A stretch of DNA of 64,000 nt from Candidatus Bipolaricaulis sibiricus (GTDB taxonomy: Bacteria > Bipolaricaulota > Bipolaricaulia > Bipolaricaulales > Bipolaricaulaceae). The position numbers and the translations under genes were made by a program. A model generated the notes under the pieces. It did not search any database. It had not been told where the DNA came from and worked only from the letters and a program-made list of their open reading frames with translations. Shown here in pieces: positions 2-12,610 of this stretch. The first letter of the stretch is position 1, and each line of letters starts with the position of its first letter. The DNA lies in contig CP034928.1 of assembly GCA_004102645.1 (NCBI GenBank), positions 1,294,153-1,358,152 on the forward strand. Direction: 5' to 3'.

Positions 2-1225
2 AATGACCGGGACCTCCCTGTACTCGTGGGGTTCGGCCTGAGTCCCCGGTACCCCGAGGCGACCCTCCGGCCATACGCGTTCATGGTCGCCGGCCTCCGG
101 GAGACGGAGCGGGATCTTCGCGACCGGGGGATCGCGCTCGTCGTTCGAATCGGCGACCCACCGGCGGTGGCCCTCGACCTCGCCCGGGACGCGGCAGGGG
201 TCGTCGTGGACCGTGGGTACCTCCGCCCTGGCCGGGCGTGGCGGGCCGCGGTCGCCGCGGGGGCACCGTGCCCCGTGATCGAGGTCGAGGGCGACGCTGT
301 GGTCCCCGTTGAGCTCGCCTACGACCGCGCCGCGTGGAGCGCAGCCGTCCTCCGGCGACGGATCGTGCCCCTCGTCGACCGGTTCCTCCAGCCCCTGGCC
401 GAGGGCGCCCCCTGCCGCCCGTCTCTCGGGCTCGACATCCCCGGCGTCGACCTCGACGACGATCGGATTCTGGACGGCCTCGACCTCGACCCGTCCGTCC
501 CCCCGGTCGACCTCCCCGCGGGCCCCACGGCGGCCCGAGCGCGGCTCGCGTTGTTTCTCGAGGAGAGCCTCCCCCGCTACGCCGATCGCCGGAGCGATCC
601 CAGCGCCAACGCGACGTCCGGCCTGAGCCCGTACCTCCACTTCGGCCAGATCTCCCCAGTCGAGGTGGCGTGGCGGGTCCGCGCCGCCGGGGGCGCGGGG
701 GCGGAGGCGTTCGTCGAGGAGCTCGTTGTGCGGCGGGAACTTGCCCTGAACTTCACCCTCTACAACGCCCACTACGACCGGTTCGAGGGCGTCCCCGCCT
801 GGGCCCGGGAGTCCCTTGCCGCCCACGCCGCCGACCCCCGCCCGGCGACCTACGACCCCGCGGCCCTCGACGGGGCGCACACCGACGACCCGGTCTGGAA
901 CGCAGCCCAACAGGAGCTCCGCTGCACCGGGACGATCCACGGCTACCTCCGGATGTACTGGGGCAAGCAGATCCTCCTCTGGACGCCCGACCCGGAGCGC
1001 GCGTTCCGCCTCGCCCTTCACCTCAACAACCGCTATGGGCTCGACGGCCGCGACCCGTCGAGCTACGCCGGGGTCGGGTGGTGCTTCGGCCTCCACGACC
1101 GGCCGTTCCCGGAGCGGCCGGTGTGGGGGAAGGTTCGTCCGATGACGCGGCGCGGGCTCGAGGCCAAGTTCGACCTCCAGCCGTACCTCGCCCGGATCGC
1201 GTCACTGGCACGCCACAAGGAGTAG
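2..1225 (+). CDS. phr: Class II CPD photolyase, 5' end cut by window edge
   Basis: Deoxyribodipyrimidine photolyase, a cytoplasmic FAD enzyme that uses light to split cyclobutane pyrimidine dimers. The frame stays open to base 2 and already reads like the class II N-terminal Rossmann region (NDRDLPVLVGFGLSPRYPEA), so the GTG at 26 is internal and the true start lies upstream; 407 residues are visible. Class II signatures are clear near the C-terminus: NNRYGLDGRDPSSYAGVGWC, then FGLHDRPFPERPVWGKVRPM, and an earlier WNAAQQEL that matches the FAD-binding helical domain. The next gene begins 3 bases after the stop, so the two may be cotranscribed. Family assignment is firm; only the start is missing. 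Confidence 0.93.
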   Translation, partial: NDRDLPVLVGFGLSPRYPEATLRPYAFMVAGLRETERDLRDRGIALVVRIGDPPAVALDLARDAAGVVVDRGYLRPGRAWRAAVAAGAPCPVIEVEGDAVVPVELAYDRAAWSAAVLRRRIVPLVDRFLQPLAEGAPCRPSLGLDIPGVDLDDDRILDGLDLDPSVPPVDLPAGPTAARARLALFLEESLPRYADRRSDPSANATSGLSPYLHFGQISPVEVAWRVRAAGGAGAEAFVEELVVRRELALNFTLYNAHYDRFEGVPAWARESLAAHAADPRPATYDPAALDGAHTDDPVWNAAQQELRCTGTIHGYLRMYWGKQILLWTPDPERAFRLALHLNNRYGLDGRDPSSYAGVGWCFGLHDRPFPERPVWGKVRPMTRRGLEAKFDLQPYLARIASLARHKE

Positions 1226-2158: not shown

Positions 2159-2271
2159 CCTCGGTGACGGACAGATCTCAACTGCTGACGGCGTCGGCGA
2201 CAGCGCCCGGCCGCGCCGCCCACGTCTGGCCCCGTCGCGGGGGATATGATCGAGAGGACAGGAGGGATCCG

Positions 2272-3144
2272 ATGACCCCCCGAAGCCGTGTGACACTCGC
2301 CTTGGTTCTATCCCTGCTCTTCCTCGTCACACCGGGCCGGCGGGGAGACGCCGCCCAGGGAGACAGTCCGCCGCCGCCGGAAGGGATGTCGCTCATCCCT
2401 GCGGGGAGCTTCCTCATGGGCGACAGCCTTGGCGAGGGCAAGGCCTACGAGCTGCCGGTCCACGAGGTCTTCGTGGGCGCGTTCTTCATCGACCGGTGTG
2501 AGGTTACAAAGGCACTGTGGGACAAGGTGGCAACCTGGGCGACAGGCCGCGGGTACGACCTCCGCCCTGGGGACGGGGCCGGGCAGGGCCCCCACCACCC
2601 GGTGACCCACGTATCCTGGTACGAGGCTGTGAAGTGGGCCAACGCCCGAAGCGAGATGGAAGGGCTCACCCCCTGCTACCGCTCCGAGGGCGGCGTCTAC
2701 CGTCAGGGCGAAGCTGATCCGCAGTGTGTCTGGACCGCGAGCGGCTATCGCCTCCCGACAGAGGCGGAGTGGGAGAAGGCGGCTCGCGGAGGAGCGCCCG
2801 GTCTGCGCTACCCATGGGGAAACGACATCGACTGTGCGCACGCGAACGCGCTCGGCTGCACGGGGGCCACGACTCCCGTAGGCAGCTACGCCCCGAATGG
2901 GTACGGACTCTACGACATGGTCGGCAACGTGTCCGAGTGGTGCTGGGACTGGATGCACGGGAGCTACTACGCAACCTCACCACGGACGAACCCCACCGGC
3001 CCGTCGGTGGGCAACCTCCGCGTCTGCCGGGGAGGAGACAAAGGAGCAGCGGCGGACTGGTGTCGCATTTCGCTCCGCACGTACAACGCCCCCCACCACG
3101 AATCCGGAGCGATCGGGTTCCGCCTCGTGCGGGCTGCACCCTAG
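2272..3144 (+). CDS. Exported SUMF1/FGE-like domain protein
   Basis: A 290-residue protein of the formylglycine-generating-enzyme/sulfatase-modifying-factor family. I choose the ATG at 2272 because GGAGG lies 7 bases upstream and the translation then opens with a signal peptide (MTPRSRVTLALVLSLLFLVT). Family motifs in order are PAGSFLMGD, FFIDRCEVTKALW, HPVTHVSWYEAVKWANA, YRLPTEAEWEKAARGG, YPWGN and YDMVGNVSEWCWDW, ending with GFRLVR. Aerobic FGE uses two cysteines near the C-terminus; here the first is Ala and only the one in DWCRIS remains, so sulfatase activation is doubtful. It may be one of the many non-catalytic paralogues of this lectin-like fold. Confidence 0.85.
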   Translation: MTPRSRVTLALVLSLLFLVTPGRRGDAAQGDSPPPPEGMSLIPAGSFLMGDSLGEGKAYELPVHEVFVGAFFIDRCEVTKALWDKVATWATGRGYDLRPGDGAGQGPHHPVTHVSWYEAVKWANARSEMEGLTPCYRSEGGVYRQGEADPQCVWTASGYRLPTEAEWEKAARGGAPGLRYPWGNDIDCAHANALGCTGATTPVGSYAPNGYGLYDMVGNVSEWCWDWMHGSYYATSPRTNPTGPSVGNLRVCRGGDKGAAADWCRISLRTYNAPHHESGAIGFRLVRAAP

Positions 3145-3590: not shown

Positions 3591-6500
3591 CTACCCGATG
3601 ATGTCTTGGTACCAGATGACGATCTTCACCTTGGCGCTCATCGTGACCGTGATCGAGTAGTACTCGCGCCTTGCGTCCCACGTACCAGTCTTCCGGGTCG
3701 GTGTCGTCGCGTCTCCCACCCACTCGTCGTAGTAGAGTGGCCCGCGGCCATACGCTCCGCCGGCGATGCGGCCGGGGAACCTCAACGTGATCGTTGAACC
3801 TGCCGTGAACGTCCCCGTGAACGGGGTCACGCGGTCCTCCGTCTCACCGCTCACCCGCACCGGTACCTTCAGCTCCTCGTAGCCCGGGGTCACCATCACC
3901 TGACGCCGCGCGTACACCTCGAGGGTGTACCCCAGCGGTCGGACGATGATCGGGCCGATGATGCCCATCTGGAGACAGGTCTCGAGCTCAACCGTCTGCT
4001 CGGCCGTCTTCGTCCGACCGGCAGCGTCGTTCGCCTGAACCCGTACCGTGACCTTTCCACCACTGGACAAGCTGGCCCGAACACCGGCCGAACCCGAGGC
4101 AGGGAAGCTTCCCATCAATGCCTGGGTTGTCCCGTTGGGATAGACAAGGCTGACCGGTCCCACGTAGATGGGCGCGGTGCCACCGCTCGCCTGCCAGTAC
4201 ACCGTGACCAGGTGGCTGTAATCCTTCTCGCACACCTTCTCCACGGCAACTCGCACAATCTGGACAGCGAGATCCGGGACGCGCGTGGCCACCGGCGTTC
4301 GCAGCGAGACCGAGTACCTGAACAGCTCGCAGTTGCGGGCGTCGAATAGGCCAAACAGAACCTCGTAGTTCGCTCCCGCCGTGGGCAGGGTCCCCGTGAG
4401 AATGCCCACTCCGTTGGTCAGATCTAGGTTCAGAGCCGCCCCACTCGGCAGGTTCGACGAAATCGTTGTCACCCGGGCGATCCCCGCCGACCGGAACCGC
4501 GACAGATCGGCGCTCGGAATGGCCTTCGTCGTCAACAGGTGCAGCCCAGTGTTGACCTCGCCGAAATCCCACTTCAGGCCCGTGAGCTGTGGACACTGCG
4601 TTGTCGTCACGGTGTAGACGCTGATCGTGAGCCGGATCACCGGGCACTTGTTTCGGTCGAGCAGGTTGTAGACGATCGTCCACCGCCCTCCGTCCCGCGG
4701 CACCGTTCCCTGAAGCCGCCCCTGCCGTGAGCCCAGGATCAGCTCGAAGCTGAGCCCAGCAGGGAGGGTCGAGCTGACCCGTGCTGCATCGACCACGCCC
4801 AGTGACGCGATCGCGCTCGTCAGGTCGGCCGGGAAAGACTTCGTCGTGTTGACGCTGCTCCCGGCGGTGACCTGACCGAAGTCCCACGCCACCTCACGGG
4901 TCGCGGGACAGCCTGGGGTGGTCGGGGCTGTCGGCACGTACTGCTCACACGTGGGCTGGAGGCAGTTCGGATCGATGAACGTTCGGATGTTGGCCTCGAT
5001 GTTGGGTACGACCTCCACCGACGTGGACGCCGTGGCTGCAGCGCCCGCGCAGGCCTGAGCCATCGCCTGAGCCTGGGCCAGCGCTTCTGCGCACGCATCA
5101 GCGAACGCTGCCGCGCGGACGCGGGCTTCGGCAGCCGCCGTCGCACTGGCCTCCGCTCGGGCCAGCGCCACCGCGCACGCTTGAGCCGAGGCATAGGCCT
5201 CCGCCTCGGCCGTCGCGAGAGCCCGTACGCACGCTTGGGCCGACGCCTGAGCCCCGGCAAACGCCGTGGCCGATGCATACGCCGCCGCTGCCGCCCTCGC
5301 CAGGGCCGTCGCGGCTGCCTGGACGTGCACCGCAACGTGTGCCTCGGCCTGAGCCTGTGCCAACGCTGCTGCCCGGGCATGGGCCAACGCCTCTGCCTGG
5401 GCGCTCGCGTAGACCTCCACACACGCCACCGCCTGGACGTACGCCGACACCGCGGCCTCCGCGGCCGCATAGGCCGCCGCATGCGCCTGGGTGATCGCCT
5501 CCGCCATCGCGGCCACACCGACGGCGACCTGAGCCTCGGCTTGCGCCTGCGCTGCAACGCACGCGCTCGCCGACGCCTGAGCCTCCGCGGTCGCTTGCGC
5601 CACCGCCTGCACGCCGGCCTGAGCCGCCGCCTGGGCCGCAGCGTACGCACTCGCTGCCGCCTCCGCGGCCGCTTGGGCCTGCACCGCCGCCTGGGCGCAC
5701 GCCTGAGCGCGGGCGAGCACCGCTGCCGCTGCGAATCCTTCCGCCTGGGCATAGGCCTGGGCATAGGCCGTACTTCCGAAGGTACCCGCTGCCGACGCCG
5801 ATGCTTGGGCCGACGCCGACGCCGCACTCACCGCAGCCGCTACCGCATTCGCTTCAGCCTGCGCCGTTGCGGCTGCTGCGGCTGCAGCCGCGGCTTGGGC
5901 TTGGGCCTGAGCGACGGCTGCCGCCACCGCTGTGCTCATCGCACTTGCCGCTGACTGCGCCTTCGCATAGGCACTCGCTGCCGCCGACGCACTCGCCTCG
6001 GCCGTGGCCTTGGCCGCCGCTACCGCGCTCGCCATCGCCTTCGCCGATGCGTCGGCCCGCGCGCACGCCTGAGCGCACGCTGCCGCTTGAGCTTCGGCCT
6101 TCGCCTTCGCCGTGGCGATCGCCTGGGCCATGGCGCTCGCCGAAGCCTGTGCCGTAGCGCACGCGCTCGCAATCGCCCTTCCCTCCGCCTCGGCGCTCGC
6201 CTTCGCGGATGCGATGGCCTTCGCAACGGCCGCCGCCACTGCCTGAGCCTCGGCGTACGCCGCGGCACACGCCTGAGCTTGCGCCTGAGCAGATGAGTAG
6301 GCCACGGCCATCGCACTTGCCGCGGCCTTGGCCTCCGCTTCGGCCTTGGCTCGTGCCTGGGCCACCGCCTGGGCAGCAGCCTGAGCCTGCCCGTAGGCAA
6401 ACGCACACGCCGCAGCCTGGGCCTCCGCGCGGGCCTGAGCTGCCGCGGCCGCCTCAGCCTGGGCCAACGCCCACGCCTCAGCCCGCGCCGTGGCCTGGGC

Positions 6501-7433
6501 GGCAGCCTGAGCCGCCGCGCTCGCCTTGGCCACGGCGGTCACCACCGCTTCCACAGTGCCGCCGATCTCGCCCACCACCGTGACACATGGCAGCACGTCC
6601 CGGATGCGCTGGTTCACGACCTGCGCCGTATCCCGTGCCTGGGAGTACGCCTGCGCCGATGCCGCTGCCTGCGCCTTCGCGTACGCATTGGCACTGGCCA
6701 CCGCCTTGGCGAACGCCGAAGCTTGGGCCGCGGCCTCCGCGCACGCTGCGGCCTCCGCCCGTGCAGCGGCCACCGCAGCTGCTGCAGCCTGAGCCTGGGC
6801 ATATGCGGCCGCCTCCGCCCTCGCCAGCGCCTCGGCCGTCGCTTTGGCGTACGCCTGGACGTCGGCCGATGCTGCCGCACAGGCGGCCGCGCTGGCCTCC
6901 GCCTCCGCCACGGCCACTGCGCACGCTTTGACAATCGCTGCCACGGCCGCGGCAGCCTCTGCGTCCGCCGCCGCACACGCCTGGGCCGAAGCTTGGGCCT
7001 CCGCCTGGGCACTGGCGCATGCTGTCGCGAACGCCTGGGCCGAGGCCTGGGCCTTCGCCGCGGCAGCTGCGCATGCCTGAGCCGACGCTTGGGCCTGCGC
7101 ACTCGCCGCCGCGCACGCCGCGGCCATCGCCTTGGCCTCTGCCTCGGCGCGCGCCGCGGCCTGGGCAACCGCTTGGGCCGCGGCCTGAGCCTGAGCACTC
7201 GCTGCAGAAGCTGCGTTGAGGAGTGTGGCTACACTGAGCTCATCCAGGAGCTTCTGGGCCGAGGCAGCCACAGCCTGGGCTTGAGCAGCGGCCTTCGCCG
7301 CCGCCGCGGCCTGCGCTTGCGCCAGCGCCGCGACGTCCTGGAGGAACGGCTGATGGGTGGTCTGTCCGAGAGCTGGAATGAAGACCCCGGCTAGGAGACA
7401 GGCCACGACGAAGAACTTTCCCGTTCTCGCCAT
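3591..7433 (-). CDS. Giant secreted alternating-alanine protein with C-terminal Ig-like domains
   Basis: A 1280-residue protein I cannot assign to a named family. Residues 1-23 are a signal peptide ending in ALG. From about residue 36 to 804 nearly every even-numbered residue is Ala, giving a near-continuous (X-A)n chain; X is Gln, Glu, Ser, Ala, Lys, Arg, Thr and, at spaced intervals, Cys, Tyr, Phe, Val, Ile, Leu or Met. The chain is broken only near 60-75, 267-299 and 549-556. After about 805 come a Cys-containing linker and two homologous domains of about 105 residues (WDFGQV near 850 and WDFGEV about 105 residues later), then more beta-rich sequence, perhaps Ig- or PKD-like. A strong Shine-Dalgarno (AAGGAGGTGG) precedes the ATG. 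A structural fibre, stalk or cell-surface spacer is likely; this is inference. Confidence 0.85.
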   Translation of the reverse strand: MARTGKFFVVACLLAGVFIPALGQTTHQPFLQDVAALAQAQAAAAAKAAAQAQAVAASAQKLLDELSVATLLNAASAASAQAQAAAQAVAQAAARAEAEAKAMAAACAAASAQAQASAQACAAAAAKAQASAQAFATACASAQAEAQASAQACAAADAEAAAAVAAIVKACAVAVAEAEASAAACAAASADVQAYAKATAEALARAEAAAYAQAQAAAAAVAAARAEAAACAEAAAQASAFAKAVASANAYAKAQAAASAQAYSQARDTAQVVNQRIRDVLPCVTVVGEIGGTVEAVVTAVAKASAAAQAAAQATARAEAWALAQAEAAAAAQARAEAQAAACAFAYGQAQAAAQAVAQARAKAEAEAKAAASAMAVAYSSAQAQAQACAAAYAEAQAVAAAVAKAIASAKASAEAEGRAIASACATAQASASAMAQAIATAKAKAEAQAAACAQACARADASAKAMASAVAAAKATAEASASAAASAYAKAQSAASAMSTAVAAAVAQAQAQAAAAAAAAATAQAEANAVAAAVSAASASAQASASAAGTFGSTAYAQAYAQAEGFAAAAVLARAQACAQAAVQAQAAAEAAASAYAAAQAAAQAGVQAVAQATAEAQASASACVAAQAQAEAQVAVGVAAMAEAITQAHAAAYAAAEAAVSAYVQAVACVEVYASAQAEALAHARAAALAQAQAEAHVAVHVQAAATALARAAAAAYASATAFAGAQASAQACVRALATAEAEAYASAQACAVALARAEASATAAAEARVRAAAFADACAEALAQAQAMAQACAGAAATASTSVEVVPNIEANIRTFIDPNCLQPTCEQYVPTAPTTPGCPATREVAWDFGQVTAGSSVNTTKSFPADLTSAIASLGVVDAARVSSTLPAGLSFELILGSRQGRLQGTVPRDGGRWTIVYNLLDRNKCPVIRLTISVYTVTTTQCPQLTGLKWDFGEVNTGLHLLTTKAIPSADLSRFRSAGIARVTTISSNLPSGAALNLDLTNGVGILTGTLPTAGANYEVLFGLFDARNCELFRYSVSLRTPVATRVPDLAVQIVRVAVEKVCEKDYSHLVTVYWQASGGTAPIYVGPVSLVYPNGTTQALMGSFPASGSAGVRASLSSGGKVTVRVQANDAAGRTKTAEQTVELETCLQMGIIGPIIVRPLGYTLEVYARRQVMVTPGYEELKVPVRVSGETEDRVTPFTGTFTAGSTITLRFPGRIAGGAYGRGPLYYDEWVGDATTPTRKTGTWDARREYYSITVTMSAKVKIVIWYQDIIG

Positions 7434-8039: not shown

Positions 8040-9161
8040 ATGGACAAGGGGAAGTACACGTTTCTCGAGCGGTTCCTGAGCACGATCAGCCCGTCGGGGT
8101 TCGAGACCGATGCCGCGGCGGTGTGGCGGGCGGAGGCGGCCCAGTTCGCCCAGCGAACCTGGGCTGATCTTCACGGGAACGCGTTTGCGTCCCTCAACGA
8201 GGCCGGTGCACCCCGGGTCATGCTCGCCGGGCACATGGACGAGATCGGGCTCATGGTGTCCCACATCACCGACTCCGGCTACCTGTACACCCGCCCGATC
8301 GGAGGCTGGGACGCCCAGATCCTCCCCGGCCAGCGGGTGTGGGTCCACACGAAGAAGGGCCGTGTTCTCGGGGTGATTGGCCGGAAGCCGATCCACCTCC
8401 TTGCCGACGAGGACAAGAAGAACGTGGTCAAGGTCGAGGACCTGTGGATCGACATCGGCGCGAAGTCGAAGGCCGACGCCGGGAAGCGGGTCGAGATCGG
8501 CGATCCGATTGTCCTGGCACACAGCCCCGACCGGCTCTCTGACGACCTTCTCGTCGCGCGGGGCGTGGACGACCGGATCGGGGCGTTCGTCGCCCTGGAG
8601 GCCCTGCGCCACCTCAAGGCCCTCAAGCCCAAGGCCGCGGTGTTCGCCGTGGCCACGGTGCAGGAGGAGATCGGCCTCCGTGGGGCGCGGACGAGCGCCT
8701 ACGGGCTCGACCCGACCGTGGGAATCGCCGTGGACGTCTGCCACACCACCGACACCCCCGGCACCGAGGGCGAGAAGAAGAAGCTCGGCGAGATCGCGCT
8801 CGGCAAGGGGCCAGTGCTTGCCCGCGGCCCGAACATCAACCCGAAGCTGTTCGACCACCTTGTGGCGACGGCCAAGAAGGCGAAGATCCCCTACCAGGTC
8901 GAGGCCGCGCCTGCCGGCACGGGGACCGACGCCAACGCGATGCAGCTCAACCGGGCGGGAATGGCGACGGCGCTGGTGTCGATCCCCAACCGCTACATGC
9001 ACTCCCCGTGCGAGGTGGTGTCCCTGAAGGACGTCGAAAACGCCGCCAAACTCATTGCCCACGCCGTGGCCGCGCTGACGGCGACGACCGACCTCGTGCC
9101 CGGAGAGAAGGGGTCCTCAACGGCCCGGCCCCGGGCCACCGTCGGACGCAAGCGAGCGTAG
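8040..9161 (+). CDS. M42-family metallo-aminopeptidase
   Basis: A 373-residue cytoplasmic peptidase of the M42 (glutamyl aminopeptidase/endoglucanase-M) family, which forms tetrahedral dodecamers that trim peptides. Metal and catalytic motifs are all present: AGHMDEIG, GVDDRIG, TVQEEIGLRGA, AVDVCHTTDTPG and MHSPCEVV. The ATG at 8040 is preferred over the TTG at 8019 because GGAG lies 5 bases upstream and the conserved N-terminal helix begins there. The C-terminal 25 residues are a poorly conserved basic tail. The radical SAM gene begins 12 bases later. Confidence 0.92.
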   Translation: MDKGKYTFLERFLSTISPSGFETDAAAVWRAEAAQFAQRTWADLHGNAFASLNEAGAPRVMLAGHMDEIGLMVSHITDSGYLYTRPIGGWDAQILPGQRVWVHTKKGRVLGVIGRKPIHLLADEDKKNVVKVEDLWIDIGAKSKADAGKRVEIGDPIVLAHSPDRLSDDLLVARGVDDRIGAFVALEALRHLKALKPKAAVFAVATVQEEIGLRGARTSAYGLDPTVGIAVDVCHTTDTPGTEGEKKKLGEIALGKGPVLARGPNINPKLFDHLVATAKKAKIPYQVEAAPAGTGTDANAMQLNRAGMATALVSIPNRYMHSPCEVVSLKDVENAAKLIAHAVAALTATTDLVPGEKGSSTARPRATVGRKRA

Positions 9162-9173
9162 CCGCGAGGCGAC

Positions 9174-10661
9174 ATGACGTCGCGCGCCGTGGGGAGATGG
9201 CTGCTGGCAGGTCCCGCGGGAACTGCAGCCTTCCTCCTCGCGGCGGAGATCCTCCGCGGACCACGGACGAGACGCTACCTCTTCACCCGCGTCGAGCGGA
9301 GGCTCCGCGAGCGACTCGCCGACCCGCCCGTCCCGCCGCCGTGGCGGGCGCGGGACCGCGAGCGGACCCTCCTCGCCCTGGGAGCCCTGCGGTCCCTCGA
9401 CCGCACCCTGGCCCGCGGAACGCTCTCCCCGCACGTCTTGCGCGCGATCGTGCGCCTGTGGGGACGGGCAGGGCTGGTTCCCAACCGGGCGACCCGGTCG
9501 GGCCGACGGTTCGCCCGACACCACGGGGCCCCGCCCCCGTGGTTCCTCGTCCTCGCCCCCACCCAGGCCTGCAACCTCCGCTGCCCAGACTGCTACGCCG
9601 AGGCCGGCGCCGACGTCCACCTCCCGTGGCCGGTCCTCGACCGAGTTCTCGCTGAGGCGAGGGAACGCTGGGACGCCCGGCTCGTCGTCCTCTCCGGCGG
9701 GGAGCCCCTCCTCTACCGGAGCGAGGGCCACGACGTTCTTGACCTCGTCGCCCGCCACCGGAGGTTTCTCTACCTCATGTTCACGAATGGCACCCTCATC
9801 ACCCCCGACGTCGCGCATCGGCTCGGGAAGCTCGGGAACCTGACCCCCGCCATCTCCGTCGAGGGGGGCGAGGGAACCACCGACCGCCGGCGCGGGGCGG
9901 GTACGTTCCGCCAGATCGAGCAGGCGATGGCCCACCTCCGGGCGCACGGGGTCCCGTTCGGGATCTCCGTGACCGTGACTCGAGACAACGTGGACGAGGT
10001 CCTGTCCGAATCGTTCCTCGACCTGTTCTTCGAGCAGCAGGGGGCATTCTATGGGTTCCTCTTTCACTACATGCCCATTGGGCGACGGCCAAACCTAGAC
10101 CGGATGCTCACTCCCGCGGAGCGGGTCGAGCTGTGGCGTCGATCGTGGGACGTCGTCGAGAGGCGAGGGATCTTCCTGTTCGACTTCTGGAACTCCGGGC
10201 CCGTGGTCCAGGGGTGCCTCGCTGCCGGCCGCGAAGGGGGGTACCTCTACATCGACTGGAACGGGGACGTCTTCCCGTGCGTGTTTGTCCCGTACCGCGG
10301 GGCCAACGTGATCGAGGCTTTCGCGCGGGGAGAGAGCCTCGATGACGTGTGGGAGGCGCCCCTGTTCTCCCGTCTCCGCGGTTGGCAGAGGAGCTATGGC
10401 TACGGCGCACCCGCGCCGACCCGTGACGGGGATTGGCTTCGGCCGTGCCCGATGCGGGACCACCACGTCGAGCTGCAGGGGCTGCTCCAGGATCTGCCCG
10501 CCAGCGCCTCCCCGTTGCTCGATCCTGAGCTCTCCACCGCCCTTGACGCGTTCGGCGCACAGCTCGCCACGCTCACCACGCCAATCTGGCGCGAGCACTA
10601 CCTCTCCGACAACGGCAGGAGCTACAGCAGGCGGCGGAGCTCGCGGAGCTTGTCGCGGTAG
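9174..10661 (+). CDS. Radical SAM/SPASM-type protein
   Basis: A 495-residue radical SAM enzyme. An N-terminal hydrophobic segment (about 10-26) and a basic helical region precede the core. The [4Fe-4S] motif CNLRCPDC lies at 133-140 and is followed by [11 protein letters not shown] and FTNGTLI, typical of the barrel. The C-terminal part has further cysteines in [20 protein letters not shown] and [10 protein letters not shown], as in SPASM or twitch extensions that hold auxiliary clusters. No precursor peptide gene is adjacent, so the substrate is unknown. The last 40 bases overlap the 3' end of the convergent uvrB, and the Ser/Arg-rich tail is antisense to the uvrB C-terminus, so the natural stop may have been lost. 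Confidence 0.85.
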
Positions 10662-12610
10662 GCAGCGGCGAGCTCGAACTCGAGGGCTTCCGCCGCCGCC
10701 TTCATCTCCTTCTCCAGCGTCCGGATGAGCTCGGCCACCTTCTCGCGGGGCAGCTTCTCGGGAGCCTTGGGGAGCTCGATCGGCTCTGCCCGCCGGCCCG
10801 AGAACTCGGCCACGATGTCGCGCACTTCCTTCTGGATCGTCTCCGGGGTGATCCCGTGCCGCCGGTTGTGAGCAAGCTGGATCTCCCGCCGGCGGTTCGT
10901 CTCGTCCACTGCCTGGCGGATGGCGTCCGTCACCTCGTCGGCGTAGAGGATGACCTTCCCCCGAACGTTGCGCGCCGCACGGCCGATCGTCTGGATGAGC
11001 GAGGTCGCCGATCGGAGGAACCCCTCCTTGTCGGCGTCGAGGATCGCCACGAGCGACACCTCGGGAAGATCGAGTCCCTCGCGCAAGAGGTTGATCCCCA
11101 CGAGGACGTCGAACTTCCCCAGGCGCAGGTCGCGGAGGATGTCCACCCGATCCAGGGTCTCGATCTCGGAGTGCAGGTAGCGGGCCCGCACCCCGAGCTC
11201 GACGAGGTAGTCGGTGAGGTCCTCCGCCATCCGCTTGGTGAGCGTGGTAACGAGTGCTCGCTCCTTCCGCGCGGTGACTGCGCGCAGCTCGCCCAGCAGG
11301 TGGTCGACCTGCCCCTGCACCGGATGGACTTCGACCTCGGGGTCCACGAGCCCCGTGGGCCGCACGATCTGCTCGACAACCTTCGCCGACACCCGCCGCT
11401 CGTAGTCGCCGGGGGTCGCGGACATGAAGATGACCTGCCCCACCCGCTCTTCGAACTCCCCGAACGTAAGCGGGCGGTTGTCCAGCGCTGACGGAAGCCG
11501 GAACCCGAACTCCACGAGTGTGCTCTTCCGGGAGCGATCTCCGTGGAACATCCCGTGGATCTGGGGCACCGTCTGGTGCGACTCGTCGATCACGGTGAGA
11601 AAGTCCGGCGGGAAGTAGTCGAGGAGCGTCCACGGCGGTTCACCGGCCGTCCGCCCGTCGAGGTGGCGCGAGTAGTTCTCGATCCCCGGGCAGTACCCCA
11701 TCTCCCGCATCATCTCCAGATCGAACAGCGTCCGTTGCTCGAGACGCTGGGCCTCGAGCAACCTCCCCGCCGCGCGGAGCTCCTTCAGCCGCTCGTCGAG
11801 CTCGGCCTCGATCCCCGCTAGCGCGCCCTTCAGCCGCTGGTCGGGGGTCACGTAGTGGGTGGCGGGGGTGATCGTGAGCCGCGAGAGCTCGGCGAGCGCG
11901 TTCCCCGTGACGGGGTCCACGGTCACGATGCGCTCCACCTGATCCCCAAACAGCTCGATCCGGTACCCCACCTCCTCCGAGGCGGGGATGACCTCCAGCA
12001 CGTCCCCCCGCAGCCGGAACGTCGCCCGCTCGAAGGCGAGCTCGTTCCGGCGGTACTGGAGCATGACCAGCTGCCTCAGAATCTCGTCCAAGTCGTAGTC
12101 GCGTCCCACCTCGAGCGCCACCGATAGCGCCGCGTAGTCCTGCGGCGAGCCCAGGCCGTAGATGCAGGACACCGAGGCCACAACGATCACGTCCCGCCGG
12201 GAGAGGAGGCTTGCCGTGGCGGCGTGACGGAGCCGGTCGATTTCCTCGTTGATCTGAGCGTCCTTCTCGATGTAGGTGTCCGTCTGGGGGATGTACGCCT
12301 CCGGCTGGTAGTAGTCGTAGTACGAGACGAAGTAGTGCACGGCGTTATCCGGGAACAGCTCGCGGAACTCGCCGTAGAGCTGGGCAGTAAGGGTCTTGTT
12401 GTGGGCAATGACCAAGGTCGGTCGCTGAACGTTCTGAACGACGTGGGCGATCGTGAACGTCTTCCCCGTGCCGGTGGCCCCGAGGAGGGTTTGGTAGCGG
12501 TGCCCTTCCTCGAGCCCCGCCGTGAGCTCCGCGATCGCCTTCGGCTGATCGCCCTGGGGCTTGAGCTTCGTCTTGAGTCTGAAGCGGTCTGCTGTTGTGA
12601 CCTTGGCCAT
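10622..12610 (-). CDS. uvrB: Excinuclease ABC subunit B
   Basis: UvrB, the damage-verification helicase of nucleotide excision repair, 662 residues, normal for the family. Visible features are Walker [11 protein letters not shown] (44-53), the beta-hairpin region with [11 protein letters not shown], helicase motifs DESHQT and the QTIGRAARN arginine-finger motif, and a C-terminal UVR domain ([20 protein letters not shown]) that binds UvrC. No Shine-Dalgarno precedes the ATG; a TACAAT box ends 8 bases upstream of it, so the mRNA may be leaderless. uvrA and uvrC are not in the window. Confidence 0.98.

Follow-up and report, generated by a model that had tools for sequence, protein, structure and literature searches.

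The 64,000-nucleotide window of a Candidatus Bipolaricaulota genome analysed here encodes, on its minus strand at 3591-7433, an exported protein of 1280 amino acids in which alanine occupies most of every second position across residues 36-804. We consider it probable that this protein is a single-chain rod, built as an antiparallel bundle of three helices with C-terminal beta-sandwich domains, that serves as a stalk or spacer of the cell envelope. The sequences from which we argue point to selection acting on the protein, a helical period, a repeat of 32 residues, three segments of near-equal length, and a conserved overall length. Residue numbers refer to the whole protein and coordinates to the window, which is the whole stretch of DNA analysed.

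Alanine alternation is maintained by selection on the protein

The alternation was described, in a reading made from the sequence alone (the sequence-only reading), for the interval 5020-7330 (minus strand), i.e., residues 35-805 of the open reading frame 3591-7433. Between residues 36 and 804, alanine is found at 330 of the 385 even positions and at 69 of the 384 odd ones (Fisher p = 9e-86). The claim that it stands at even positions almost without exception holds in substance but is slightly too strong, because the alternation is interrupted at residues ~62-74, 269-299, and 549-555. The parity is carried through each of these breaks. When they are left out, 327 of the 360 even residues (91%) are alanine, and the longest unbroken series comprises 43 alanine sites. 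The commonest other residues at even sites are Val (26), Ser (8), and Gly (6), and the odd sites are mostly occupied by Q, S, and E. Turn formers are scarce, with 12 Gly and 1 Pro among the 769 residues of the chain.

All four GCN codons are in use along the alternating chain, so the DNA is not a simple repeat. Even sites that are alanine in both of two orthologues keep the same codon in only ~27-43% of cases. The ratio of nonsynonymous to synonymous substitution rates (dN/dS) is 0.02-0.05 at even codons, 0.04-0.23 at odd codons, and 0.12-0.28 in the C-terminal part, these ratios being rough because dS is high and in places near saturation. On this comparative evidence, the even codons are under strong purifying selection, because of which we take the chain to be translated protein and not an accident of repeats. 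The other open frames of 80-257 amino acids within the alternating stretch are by-products of the GCN periodicity.

The alternating chain has the periodicity of a helical coiled coil

The odd residues hide a 32-residue repeat, split into 14 and 18: the odd-column profile has an autocorrelation of 0.98 at a lag of 32 and peaks again at lags of 14, 18, 46, and 64; in shuffled profiles, the maximum has a 99% quantile of 0.24. Once the mean of its parity class has been subtracted from every site, hydrophobicity peaks at 0.282 per residue in each of the three segments, which corresponds to 3.54-3.55 residues per period. With the odd sites alone, the period of 3.55 is not separable from its alias of 4.57, but the even sites separate them. 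Odd and even sites independently point to the same face of the helix (coherence 30.0, null standard deviation 6.5, 0 of 5000 permutations). On the odd-site wheel, the core is 58% hydrophobic and 28% alanine, and the back is 7% hydrophobic and dominated by Q and E. A 32/9 repeat corresponds to three heptads and one hendecad (7+7+7+11) in 9 helical turns.

AlphaFold2, with 16 homologues as input, predicts helix almost throughout the chain, with breaks at residues 66-68, 281-283, and 549-555. Its confidence peaks on the flanks of the turns and drops in mid-helix. The sequence-only reading had named structure prediction as a check, and the prediction returns a helix with the same turns, followed by four C-terminal beta-sandwiches. 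By its periodicity and its predicted fold, the chain is an alpha-helical coiled coil (32/9) and not a beta or silk structure. A near-perfect period of two can hence encode a helix rather than a strand, and it can mislead annotation.

Three helices of near-equal length probably make up the rod

Conserved anchors delimit the helices: FL at residue 31, LL at 63, PC at 282, the AAGT turn at 550, and TSV at 802. The chain is divided by two conserved turns, centred near residues 281 and 552. The parts of the protein are listed below with the evidence for each.

3591..7433, minus strand: whole gene of the exported alternating-alanine rod protein, 1280 amino acids (open frame; same architecture in the homologues of relatives)
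7365..7433, minus strand: signal peptide, residues 1-23, probable cleavage ALG|Q, A-x-A|Q in homologues (sequence and alignment)
6594..7343, minus strand: predicted first helix, residues 31-280, starting at the conserved [FIV]L(P)(D)[IV] motif, 32+219 residues from anchor to anchor (AlphaFold2, anchor lengths, helical period 3.55)
Residues ~63-68, minus strand: conserved kink inside the first helix, LLxxLs (anchor lengths, AlphaFold2)
6537..6629, minus strand: alternation-free break, residues 269-299, with the first turn, conserved PC(G) at 282-283 (sequence, AlphaFold2, anchors)
5790..6584, minus strand: predicted second helix, residues 284-548, 268 residues from anchor to anchor (AlphaFold2, anchors, helical wheel)
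5769..5789, minus strand: predicted second turn, residues 549-555, AAGTxG, a site of 2-residue indels (AlphaFold2, anchors)
5028..5768, minus strand: predicted third helix, residues 556-802, 250-252 residues from anchor to anchor, ending at the conserved TSVxVVP (AlphaFold2, anchors, helical wheel)
4908..5027, minus strand: conserved Cys/Pro-rich linker, residues 803-842, FIDPxCLxPTCExYVP...GCP (invariant columns in A1/A3; low AlphaFold2 confidence)
4611..4898, minus strand: predicted beta-sandwich domain 1, He_PIG-like, residues 846-941 (AlphaFold2; subthreshold Pfam He_PIG)
4299..4583, minus strand: predicted beta-sandwich domain 2, residues 951-1045, resembling domain 1 (AlphaFold2)
3984..4268, minus strand: predicted beta-sandwich domain 3, residues 1056-1150 (AlphaFold2)
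3603..3932, minus strand: predicted beta-sandwich domain 4, residues 1168-1277 (AlphaFold2)

The chain was compared across 17 full-length or nearly full-length homologues, the window's own protein included. All of them have alanine at 79-88% of even and 13-20% of odd positions; the identity of odd residues falls to 28-31% in the most distant, and some odd residues are conserved position by position, e.g., Cys 107, 153, 185, and 283. In every full-length member of the main family, the anchor spans are 32, 219, 268, and 250-252 residues, which gives helices of 251, 268, and 250-252; counted with its N-terminal piece, the first helix agrees in length with the third. In L110 and L112, the spans are 32/251/300/282 and the helices 283/300/282, so that in this group every helix has exactly one additional 32-residue unit. 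L111, with an aligned row that begins late, agrees with them in its last three spans (251/300/282). The kink near the N-terminus and the two turns are the only sites with insertions or deletions (indels) of two residues, and every indel within the chain has an even length. Three matching helix lengths joined by short turns are the pattern of an antiparallel three-helix coiled coil. The analysed span is 767-771 residues in 15 of the 17 homologues (the outliers have 777 and 863), and more distant members fall into length classes of ~780 and ~870 residues. Judged from these alignments, the length of the rod is strongly conserved; at 0.15 nm per residue it would be 37-40 nm, and 42-45 nm in the longer class. 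A matching of the helix layers by their 32-residue phases, compared by hand, was not decisive and was not used.

What we infer beyond this, namely the exact bundle, its lateral packing, its place in the envelope, and a role as spacer, would be as follows. Residues 31-802 would form an up-down-up three-helix coiled coil of ~37-40 nm on the 32-residue repeat, with the N-terminus at one end of the rod and the flexible Cys/Pro linker and four beta-sandwich domains at the other. A narrow hydrophobic stripe at odd positions (A, C, V, I, M, L) would be turned towards the other helices, the remainder being polar (Q, E, S, K, R), and alanine at nearly all even positions would allow close helix packing and leave shallow grooves on the outside as well. 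The result would be a stiff stalk, spacer, or scaffold of fixed length in the cell envelope, holding the immunoglobulin (Ig)-like domains ~40 nm away, with attachment or packing at the opposite end or along the sides.

Several observations weigh against the three-helix rod. The AlphaFold2 prediction is middling: the mean predicted local distance difference test score is 77 for the top model and 60-68 for the other four, and the predicted template modelling score is 0.40. Its confidence dips at residues 148-171, 392-414, and 686-712. A hairpin bundle would account for the pattern of confidence, but this topology, like the antiparallel contacts between helices, is deduced and not directly seen. 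The class with 32 additional residues is one related group, so it represents few events. Its insertions fall after residues 92, 471, and 678 in one alignment and somewhat elsewhere in another; their position inside each helix is uncertain and the totals per helix are certain, and we relied on the totals alone. One remote homologue (L244) has all three helices shortened, by roughly 30, 46, and 48 residues, which is no clean multiple. Finally, many members of the phylum have no match; some are incomplete metagenome-assembled genomes (MAGs), but G004 is 94% complete. The rod protein is therefore not universally required.

Alanine on the outer face suggests lateral packing

On the helical wheel, alanine makes up 86-92% of even sites at every angle round the helix, the side away from the core included, and polar or charged residues reach ~1% at most, on the outer face too. 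Among the minor even-site residues, Val is commoner towards the core, and Ser and Thr towards the outside. Because packing inside one rod does not explain why alanine is kept on the outer face as well, the simplest reading suggests that rods pack against each other, many of them probably side by side. In a helix, each i, i+4 row consists of residues of one parity, which would give alternating grooves and ridges. We advance as a tentative idea, which we hold to be unlikely as a whole, that the strict alternation is a new packing code: screw-like helices, with alanine grooves and side-chain ridges, would interlock from all directions, and the rods would form a sheath or scaffold, e.g., the wall of the Bipolaricaulota prostheca, its thickness being determined by how many 32-residue units there are. 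A possible design rule would be that of stiff, compact helical rods growing in 32-residue steps.

Envelope setting and comparison with Omp-alpha

Two long, flexible prosthecae are present in Candidatus Bipolaricaulis, whose envelope has been judged difficult to class and is perhaps that of a simple diderm like Thermotoga (PMC6092417). The genome that carries the rod gene encodes an Omp85 protein, so an outer membrane is likely. It is possible, if rather doubtful, that the protein is a periplasmic spacer that keeps the outer membrane at a set distance from the cell body, as Omp-alpha does in Thermotoga. The presence of Omp85 and the conserved rod length speak for this, as does the similar length of Omp-alpha (~50 nm, PMC5082667). 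Omp-alpha (OmpA1) of Thermotoga maritima is a coiled-coil spacer (PMC5082667; PMC3387000), and the likeness extends to a long exported alpha-helical coiled-coil rod, measuring tens of nm, to a bacterial host whose envelope is unusual, and to the idea of a spacer conserved in length. However, Omp-alpha has an SLH domain and is anchored in the membrane by its C-terminus, and the model proposed for it is an intermolecular coiled coil of four parallel strands. A Pfam scan found no N-terminal SLH domain in the rod protein, and no hydrophobic membrane anchor was found at its C-terminus, which is a beta-sandwich ending in IVIWYQDIIG. The apparent single-chain three-helix design, the alternating alanine, and the Ig-like domains also set it apart from Omp-alpha.

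The same genome encodes a protein of 161 amino acids (L115:1237-1722, minus strand; G000:C1 near 1550677-1550805) with a signal peptide, one SLH domain, a coiled-coil-like stretch of ~50 residues, and a C-terminal membrane helix. This is the layout of Omp-alpha in miniature, and a possible outer-membrane tether of the phylum. Such a short protein would suggest a periplasm much narrower than a 40-nm rod, so a surface position of the rod is slightly favoured. Ig-like domains are also more usual on surfaces.

Alternative conformations of the chain

We regard it as quite unlikely that the same helices assemble between molecules into a coiled coil, or lie extended as single helices of up to ~115 nm, with the breaks as flexible joints. 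The composition would suit long helices, but the three near-equal lengths, their joint increase by 32, the restriction of 2-residue indels to the breaks, and the turn-like Pro/Gly character of these breaks argue against it. A long coiled-coil stalk in a single exported chain, as we propose for the rod protein, is also found in UmbC, the stalk of the Streptomyces umbrella particle, which has ALF repeats and partners (PDB 8w20; PMC11062931). UmbC is the best Foldseek match of the chain (E 0.19, probability 0.21), and the fold search gave no significant match. The profile search showed no sequence match to 8w20 up to E = 1, and the Pfam scan no ALF repeats, so kinship with umbrella toxins was rejected.

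A beta-structured fibre, silk-like or solenoid, with one alanine face and one variable face, is very improbable. A period of 2 is the classical pattern of a beta-strand, and the lag of 32 could be the rung of a solenoid, but we dropped such folds in view of the 3.55 period on which odd and even sites independently agree, the helical wheel, the scarcity of Gly and Pro, and the helix predicted by AlphaFold2. Of the fibre, stalk, or silk-like material envisaged by the sequence-only reading, the stalk holds, whereas the silk-like beta chain fails against the helical period, the 32-residue repeat, the turns, and the predicted fold. Bombyx-type beta silks are Gly-rich, with a (Gly-Ala)n alternation and beta structure; they alternate like the rod chain, but the latter is helical and lacks strand structure. 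The (Gln-Ala)n tracts of TCERG1 and SPT20-like proteins likewise have alanine at every second residue, but they are short simple repeats of eukaryotic nuclear proteins that match in composition only. Closer in conformation are the hymenopteran (honeybee) silk fibroins F1-F4, a heterotetramer with heptads and a 24 nm rod in which alanine is concentrated at positions a, d, e, and g (PMC12284834). They are rich in alanine and form an antiparallel coiled coil, as the rod protein probably does, and honeybee silk is material-forming. They differ in having four chains and alanine mainly in the core, where the rod protein has it on every second residue all round the helix and a 32-residue repeat instead of heptads, and no sequence relation between the two was found.

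There is practically no chance that the chain is a low-complexity expansion, a sequencing artefact, or an untranslated frame: X-Ala runs do arise by hexanucleotide expansion elsewhere (viral contigs, mostly ~60-140 amino acids, often AV/AT/AP repeats) and two relatives have internally deleted copies, but here the DNA is non-repetitive, dN/dS within the genus is 0.02-0.14 against a high dS, the length is constant in 15 of 17 homologues, odd Cys residues are conserved, and codon turnover and dN/dS rule out microsatellite expansion in general.

The protein matches no catalogued family

The signal peptide, supported by sequence and alignment, is in line with the export proposed by the sequence-only reading, and the C-terminal Ig-like domains that it described are beta-sandwich folds in the AlphaFold2 model. 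The only Pfam match of the window's own protein is He_PIG, at 16.9 bits and thus below the cut-off of 24 (best E 1.5e-5 among 12 homologues). NCBIfam and PHROGs gave no match, and a profile of the C-terminal part found no PDB relative by sequence. The fold search with this part retrieved many Ig- and cadherin-like chains; the TM-scores were low, and the arrangement is that of beads on a string. Profile matches of the chain in PDB to SPT20-like, TCERG1, and eL29 proteins were rejected as compositional (QA tracts, Ala-rich tails). We rate the rod protein as a new family, with no relative of the whole protein found in Pfam, NCBIfam, or PDB. A described fibre family with close homologues was sought and not found, the homologues being unannotated genes of the same phylum, which agrees with the earlier statement that no named family was known. 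An uncatalogued, phylum-wide exported protein is thereby added for a group of bacteria whose study has relied almost entirely on genomes, with some microscopy; long bipolar prosthecae are present in one of them.

Gene neighbourhood

The genome is a single contig of 1.70 Mb. The rod gene stands alone in it, with DUF498, M42, and uvrB on one side and a hydrolase and a photolyase on the other, a context kept in near relatives only; comparison of neighbourhoods with relatives found no operon partners. The gene is flanked by those of an FGE-sulfatase domain protein (2263-3144, plus strand) and a radical SAM/SPASM protein (9174-10661, plus strand), with no sign of an operon.

Distribution of homologues

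The search beyond the phylum covered the C-terminal part, and the scan for the alternation itself covered Bipolaricaulota genomes and viral contigs. The C-terminal part has homologues in 27 of 60 relatives, and nearly all of the public records that match it bear the names Acetothermia, Bipolaricaulis, or Bipolaricaulota; the title is, oddly, "Thermotoga sp." for one and "uncultured bacterium" for another. A strict 19-fold GCN-NNN pattern occurs in 41 of 100 phylum genomes, from 23 of 39 genera and at least 5 families, and the reversed control pattern in none. In the window's own genome, all of the matches listed lie inside the rod gene.

No relative of the C-terminal part turned up in any viral contig, and viral matches to the pattern are mostly short simple repeats; a viral origin of the rod gene was hence rejected. 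Some viral contigs (e.g., L147, L161, and L173) have frames of simple (Ala-Val)n or (Ala-Thr)n, ~90-200 residues long, with hexanucleotide-like repeats and a low complexity unlike that of the rod protein.

Individual copies depart from the common architecture. Most of the alanine chain is deleted in L096 (G003, 9536-11407), in frame and with ~120 residues left, and in L080 (G015, 8412-10196), with a frameshift; these may be real losses or assembly errors or collapses. The record titled "Thermotoga sp." (L093, DYGJ01000050.1) carries a Bipolaricaulota rod protein at 81% identity and is probably a mislabelled MAG. In L085 (G014:C225, 9907-14814), a second, longer copy (a frame of 1636 amino acids) lies beside the normal one and has extra C-terminal domains of the beta-sandwich type.

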